DNA of 64,000 nt from Streptomyces sp. SJL17-4 (GTDB taxonomy: Bacteria > Actinomycetota > Actinomycetes > Streptomycetales > Streptomycetaceae), in assembly GCF_036826855.1 (NCBI RefSeq), contig NZ_CP104578.1, positions 5,739,501 through 5,803,500 on the forward strand. The letters run 5' to 3'. A program made the translations under genes and the position numbers. Positions 42,973-46,174 of the stretch are shown here, piece by piece; position 1 is the first letter of the stretch; every line of letters begins with the position of its first letter. A model generated the notes under the pieces. It saw nothing but the letters and a program-made list of their open reading frames with translations. It was not told the origin of the DNA and ran no database searches.

Positions 42973-43045
42973 GGGGCTATAGCTCAGTTGGTAGAGCGCC
43001 TGCATGGCATGCAGGAGGTCAGGAGTTCAATTCTCCTTAGCTCCA
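42973..43045 (+). tRNA. tRNA-Ala (GGC), second copy
   Basis: Identical over all 73 nt to 38713-38785, including the anticodon loop ATGGCAT. The identity runs one base upstream (G versus A differs before that) and about four bases downstream (CACA), so the repeat is essentially the tRNA itself. It has its own promoter and terminator. Confidence 0.97.
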
Positions 43046-43050
43046 CAGAA

Positions 43051-43087
43051 AAGAAGCGGGTCACCCGGACAGGGTGGCCCGCTTCTT
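43051..43087 (+). terminator. Terminator after second tRNA-Ala
   Basis: A 16-bp stem with one G-U pair (43051-43066 with 43072-43087) and a 5-nt loop. It isolates the leuS leader from tRNA transcription. Confidence 0.8.
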
Positions 43088-43133
43088 CGTATCCCGCTAC
43101 GTGGCACGCCGTGCCCTGCGGTACCCTGACCCC

Positions 43134-43172
43134 ATGCGTGCCGTACGCCTTCTGCTTACCGAGCCGCGCTGA
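43134..43172 (+). CDS. leuS leader peptide MRAVRLLLTEPR
   Basis: A 12-codon frame, ATG 43134 to TGA 43170-43172, with three consecutive leucine codons, CTT-CTG-CTT. CTT is rare in high-GC genomes. It ends 45 nt before a strong terminator that precedes leuS. There is no Shine-Dalgarno; TACCCT at 43122-43127 lies 7 nt upstream, so transcription could begin at the ATG itself and the peptide be read from a leaderless RNA. The arrangement is that of a leucine-sensing attenuator. Confidence 0.75.
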   Translation: MRAVRLLLTEPR

Positions 43173-43241
43173 TCAGTCCCGGCGGATGACAGACATCCGT
43201 CGGAGTCGGCGCGGCGTCCCCTCCTGTGCGAGGGGTTTTTT
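43173..43241 (+). promoter_or_regulatory. leuS transcription attenuator region
   Basis: After the leader peptide come a 6-bp hairpin (43183-43188 with 43194-43199), a segment (43209-43215) fully complementary to the end of the leader coding region (43163-43169), and the terminator at 43218-43241. These are alternative pairings of the kind expected for ribosome-position-dependent attenuation. Stalling at the leucine codons when charged tRNA-Leu is short would favour leuS transcription. Confidence 0.65.
43218..43241 (+). terminator. Attenuator terminator with U-tract before leuS
   Basis: A 6-bp stem, CCCCTC (43218-43223) with GAGGGG (43230-43235), a 6-nt loop and six T residues (43236-43241). 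A U-tract of this length is rare in streptomycetes and it lies 56 nt before leuS, not after a gene. Confidence 0.85.

Positions 43242-43297: not shown

Positions 43298-46174
<2,877 letters not shown>

Follow-up and report, generated by a model that had tools for sequence, protein, structure and literature searches.

A leucine-codon leader with a covarying helix at its end in front of leuS in Streptomyces and other families of its class: a probable transcription attenuator

The window analysed here, a stretch of 64,000 nucleotides from Streptomyces sp. SJL17-4, carries on its forward strand a gene for leucyl-tRNA synthetase (LeuRS), the 958-residue product of which matches TIGR00396 with 900.8 bits at a cut-off of 548.4. 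The region in front of this gene holds a promoter box, a short leader open reading frame with three successive leucine codons and an intrinsic terminator, as well as a helix, called P1, that came to light in the comparison with related genomes.

43122..43127, + strand: TACCCT, the -10 box of the leader promoter; its T, A and final CT do not vary among the 90 genus regions
43134..43172, + strand: leader open reading frame, encoding MRAVRLLLTEPR, 12 codons, with ATG at 43134 and stop codon TGA at 43170-43172
43149..43157, + strand: three leucine codons, CTT (43149), CTG (43152) and CTT (43155), as read from the sequence
43163..43173, + strand: 5' strand of helix P1, the end of the leader frame including the stop codon (fold and covariation)
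43179..43203, + strand: P2, a variable hairpin inside P1, seen in the genus; many of the wider loci lack it or have another one
43205..43215, + strand: 3' strand of helix P1, 2 nt 5' of the terminator stem (fold and covariation)
43218..43241, + strand: intrinsic terminator with a 6-bp stem, composed of CCCCTC (43218-43223), loop CTGTGC, GAGGGG (43230-43235) and TTTTTT (43236-43241)
43225..43226, + strand: UG dinucleotide in the terminator loop, its U being the tenth nucleotide after P1; candidate site of a hairpin-stabilised pause
43298..46174, + strand: leuS, leucyl-tRNA synthetase

An earlier, sequence-only reading of this DNA had pointed out the 12-codon frame with its CTT-CTG-CTT run and a GC stem of 6 bp with six T residues ending 56 nt before leuS, and both descriptions are borne out by the sequence: the codons occupy 43149-43157, and 56 nt separate the last T of the terminator (43241) from the leuS ATG (43298). 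The same reading took the TACCCT box, placed 7 nt before the ATG, as the sign of a leaderless leader. There are 6 nt between box and ATG, with the A as the seventh nucleotide, which is a leaderless geometry, and a leaderless transcript is thus to be expected. Its remark that CTT is a rare codon is also correct, since the two coding sequences of the window that were counted use no CTT among 138 leucine codons and 20 leuS genes of class relatives use it for 22 of 1412 (1.6%). As it had further stated, T-boxes are absent: apart from tRNA, no Rfam family matches the window at its gathering score, and the only matches being two tRNAs, there is no T-box in the window. A tRNA gene and, after it, an inverted repeat that resembles its own terminator are located at 42973-43090, directly 5' of the leader promoter.

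In their passages on this gene, two papers already make a leuS attenuator known for Streptomyces. In S. avermitilis and S. coelicolor, leuS was predicted by Seliverstov et al. (2005; PMC1262725) to have a classical attenuator, with a leader peptide frame and a terminator at the same gene as here, whereas the antiterminator hairpin that they state has no counterpart with covariation support in our analysis, which also adds further genera, and other families of the class, to the two species that they name. The RNA-seq-based reannotation of S. lividans TK24 (PMC8079986, 2021) lists LeuL2, MRAVRLLLSEPR, a leaderless frame 5' of leuS that is followed by a hairpin and a U run. It differs from MRAVRLLLTEPR in one residue and is otherwise, to judge from its description, the same element. 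By its sequence and its position, the window element is the counterpart of LeuL2. What goes beyond the relevant parts of PMC1262725 and PMC8079986 is the wider range, the covariation of P1, the bias towards CTT, the occurrence with two LeuRS types and the doubt about the antiterminator. The term 'leuS' does not occur in the main text of PMC8269248, PMC4833913 and PMC2965389. Among the matches listed in a search that had subscription literature outside its coverage, there were no further titles on a leuS attenuator. A paper by Lopatovskaya et al. from 2010, cited in related literature, is said to be comparative in nature.

Within the genus, a query with the N-terminal part of leuS gave a match in all 295 Streptomyces genomes. 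Upstream regions were compared for 90 of these, being the 30 best matches and 60 more, all from the better-scoring half of the leuS-query matches. A leader with three consecutive leucine codons and a terminator is present in each of the 90 regions, and the loss of leucine codons or terminator in relatives, which the sequence-only reading had named as the outcome that would speak against it, was not encountered. Most leader positions are invariant across the 90 regions, synonymous third positions included, and together with the complete conservation this argues that leader and terminator are more than a chance arrangement. The first leucine codon is CTT in 80 and CTC in 10 regions, the middle one CTG in all 90, and the last one CTT in 88 and CTC in 2.

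A covariance model built on 37 of the 90 genus sequences (R1) found a match in all 121 sampled genomes of the family (Streptomycetaceae), representing 17 of 17 genera. In the class sample (Actinomycetes), 127 of 394 genomes were matched by R1; 40 of these belong to the own genus, for which no miss was present among the misses listed, and 87 of the 354 genomes from other families, distributed over 23 families by hand count, were positive as well. The gene directly downstream is leuS in 79 of the 80 R1 matches examined, the remaining one running off its contig, and the 80 wider loci considered below comprise 20 from other genera of the family and 60 from other families. A second model derived from the wider alignment (R2) extended the matches in the class sample to 182 of 394 genomes at E <=0.1, with 148 of them at E <=1e-6 (hand count), and yielded a match in 17 of 296 genomes of the phylum sample, where two R2 matches lie outside the class, one with leader and leuS and the other unrelated. 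The weak R2 matches include false positives. Twenty R2 matches were checked, 17 in the class that had been missed by R1 and three from the phylum sample. Seventeen of them precede leuS, one resembles a cimA leader and two, one of these a weak match in the class, are unrelated. In ten genomes with two R2 matches the second was never located at leuS. Most sampled genomes outside the family gave no match, a statement that concerns matches to the models and not the sequence upstream of leuS as such. The leuS attenuator thus appears to be more widespread than the published description for Streptomyces.

For a closer look at the leader, an alignment of 81 rows (A2) was used, composed of the window, five genus loci and 75 of the 80 wider loci; it omits L257, L269, L308, L316 and L329 on account of long inserts, the missing of a standard terminator or a contig end. 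Two aligned leucine codons are present in all rows and three in 76 of 81, and in 79 of the 80 wider loci a leader was found in which two or more leucine codons follow each other, the remaining locus being cut by the end of a contig. The last aligned leucine codon (43155-43157 in the window) is CTT in 75 rows and CTC in 6. Each of the 79 leaders found in the 80 wider loci has, 6 or 7 nt ahead of its start codon, the end of a TAnnnT motif (as compared to 0.35% for upstream positions taken at random), a count that is favoured by the procedure, since equal leucine-run candidates were resolved toward starts preceded by TAnnnT. The distance from the last aligned leucine codon to the start of P1 is 5 nt in 81 of 81 rows; in one of the loci (L307) an extra leucine codon lies in between. 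Together, the TAnnnT spacing, the bias towards CTT and the fixed distance to P1 point to a leaderless leader in which the last leucine codon would be the main sensor.

P1 itself is an 11-bp helix between the last codons of the leader with its stop codon and the sequence just 5' of the terminator, usually formed in A2 by GCCGCGCTGA, which includes the stop codon, and TCAGCGCGGC. Over the 81 sequences 96.5% of the P1 cells are paired, and moving the partner strand by 1 to 3 columns lowers this to 24-48%. Six of the 11 pairs have changed on both sides, with 62 such cells as compared to a mean of 8.7 after shuffling. Leaders ending in PC have GCCGTGC, which pairs with GCACGGC; variants with PH have GCCGCAC, which pairs with GTGCGGC; and leaders that stop earlier carry GCCGCGTCG, which pairs with CGACGCGGC. 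The predicted pairing is maintained although the end of the peptide varies. The gap between P1 and terminator is 1-3 nt in all 81 rows and 2 nt in 65 of them, and the terminator stem covaries too, five of its six pairs being changed on both sides (7 such cells vs 0.9 in shuffled alignments). In the fold of the window P1 and the terminator are compatible and not mutually exclusive, which touches on the alternative pairings proposed in the sequence-only reading: a candidate for these can be folded in the window, but the strong helix is one that coexists with the terminator.

The candidate antiterminator pairs the 3' strand of P1 with the terminator loop (GCGCGG:CUGUGC) at -6.5 kcal/mol, as compared to -10.8 kcal/mol for the terminator. 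The general form GCGCGG:CUGNGC is paired in 86.3% of cells, a value equalled by 496 of 500 shuffles, which gives no covariation support, and when partners were swapped the natural combinations were slightly worse, with 271 and 289 out of 300 swapped sets matching or surpassing them. The power of such a test is limited because both strands are highly conserved. Foldable as it is in the window, this antiterminator was set aside for its lack of covariation support. At equilibrium the terminator prevails in the prediction, its probability being on average 0.84 with P1 masked and 0.82 unmasked. With the footprint length generally taken for a ribosome, the first bases of P1 would be covered when the last CTT is in the A site, and barely reached when the ribosome stands at the first leucine codon. 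If the ribosome edge is made 3 nt shorter in the model, P1 mostly stays, with a mean of 0.66 and values over 0.5 in 80 of 81 rows, and the opening of P1 by a stalled ribosome is therefore sensitive to the true footprint.

The attenuators of the trp, his and pheST operons of E. coli consist of a leader peptide with control codons, a helix at the leader end and a U-run terminator, all of which the leuS leader shares. The latter differs from the E. coli type in being leaderless, in having a leader-end helix that holds the stop codon and adjoins the terminator, and in that no stable antiterminator was found. The LEU element before leuA of Actinobacteria, as it is presented in PMC1262725, is a pseudoknot of which the base stem pairs leucine codons with the Shine-Dalgarno box, and the leuA leader of S. 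lividans is given in PMC8079986 as one without a typical terminator, unlike the leuS leader with its U-run terminator.

Leaders of similar architecture that contain isoleucine codons (e.g. MFYGLLIIGRRAG) were seen before a citramalate synthase-like gene (L360, L361, L362, L367, L387 and, in the own genome, L408 and L411). For a 137-residue piece at L361 the best NCBIfam match is TIGR00977, with 161.9 bits and thus below the cut-off for the whole protein; the other calls were made by eye, and L387 is known from its leader alone. A terminator-like arm of the CGAGGG/GAGGGG type with a T run precedes the citramalate synthase-like homologue in 19 of 22 loci from 21 relatives, the own genome included. 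No literature title on an isoleucine leader before such a gene was among the matches listed. At L364 a leader VRYDILVLP, a helix and a terminator lie before an acetolactate synthase gene of the ilvB type.

The gene behind the leuS leader is of two kinds. The N-terminal identity to the LeuRS of the window is at least 60% at 46 of 79 loci and 36-45% at the other 33, and a comparison of 20 full-length proteins, from which L335 was left out, gave two groups with identities of at least 55% within and 36-44% between groups. The LeuRS cut-off is passed by one protein of the first group, that of the window, and by two of the second. Both types are present in each of two families (f9 and f20), and one genome (G590; 93% complete, 2% contamination) even has both, each behind its own leader (L277 and L320). 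This is most simply read as an exchange of leuS behind a leader that stayed or travelled.

The arrangement is best explained as a leucine-sensing, ribosome-mediated transcription attenuator, to which we assign a probability of about 0.85, and leader and terminator would very likely serve to tune the level of leucyl-tRNA synthetase to the supply of leucine. That leuS is subject to leucine-specific attenuation by the ribosome had been proposed in the sequence-only reading; this idea is not new and fits the comparative evidence. Transcription would start at or adjoining the leader ATG, so that a ribosome initiates on a leaderless mRNA. With ample Leu-tRNA it would pass CTT-CTG-CTT, reach the stop codon and depart, after which the leader end can pair with 43205-43215 to form P1, and the terminator that follows would halt transcription. 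When Leu-tRNA is scarce, the ribosome would stall at the leucine codons, chiefly at the last CTT, and, by occupying the start of P1, keep this helix from forming; RNA polymerase would then continue into leuS. Conservation of the promoter box, leader, leucine codons, P1 and terminator, and the fixed spacing, are established by comparison of the loci; we infer the stalling, the response to leucine and the failure of the terminator when P1 does not form. The freed 3' strand of P1 could slow the terminator kinetically by pairing with its loop (GCGCGG with CUGUGC), or P1 may alternatively serve as a pause hairpin for the polymerase. What counts against the attenuator reading is that no covarying antiterminator was found, that in the prediction the terminator forms about as readily when P1 is masked, that P1 mostly stays in the model with the shorter ribosome edge, and that published mutational tests on two leaders of S. 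coelicolor, those of ilvB and leuA, were at odds with classical attenuation, as cited in PMC1262725.

That P1 acts mainly as a pause hairpin, with the polymerase pausing at the UG of the terminator loop until it is freed by the translating ribosome, and that the timing of ribosome and polymerase instead of a stable antiterminator decides the outcome, is possible, if on balance doubtful. It would agree with the short P1-terminator gap in every row of A2 and with the failure to find an antiterminator with covariation, as well as with the frequency of a TG of which the T lies 10 to 12 nt beyond P1: 82 of 98 sequences have one, as do 60 of 76 distinct 16-mers and 23 of the 35 distinct ones without CCTG. 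Shuffling the loop letters, which is a crude control, places TG there in a mean of 24 and a maximum of 40 of 98. The TG is, however, missing from these positions in 16 of 98 sequences, the loop may owe its conservation to common descent or to its place in the terminator, and not to pausing, and the geometry is borrowed from the his and trp leaders of E. coli. Control of synthetase genes by T-boxes is common in other phyla, but that a tRNA-sensing T-box or a metabolite riboswitch precedes this leuS is extremely improbable: the T-box was rejected for want of a match at the gathering score, nothing in Rfam besides tRNA reached its threshold in the window, and the conserved part consists of a reading frame with control codons and simple helices. 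Somewhat easier to defend, but still unlikely, is a constitutive terminator that lowers basal leuS expression, the peptide being a byproduct of a leaderless start that takes no part in amino acid control. The terminator is indeed predicted to form regardless of the ribosome, and codon changes in the ilvB leader of S. coelicolor were reportedly without effect (as cited in PMC1262725). Such a terminator leaves the rare CTT at the last leucine position and the constant 5-nt spacing to P1 unexplained, and does not account for covariation that alters the end of the peptide and yet keeps the pairing.

The attenuator reading can be extended to a more speculative picture, which we offer tentatively: an old, leaderless leucine sensor of the class may have been kept while the two deeply diverged LeuRS types were swapped behind it, with no stable antiterminator, a covarying pause helix at the leader end that decides on termination and has its timing set by the ribosome at the rare CTT, and the same design at cimA and ilvB.

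The comparison thus provides a precise anatomy of the element, in that it points to a particular codon, helix and spacing, and it exposes a gap, as the usual antiterminator fails to explain how stalling of the ribosome would prevent termination. It also extends the published Streptomyces case to other families of the class, where the leader is attached to two deeply diverged lineages of leuS. The leuS element fits a control of the synthetase that is linked to leucine by way of attenuation and not by a T-box.
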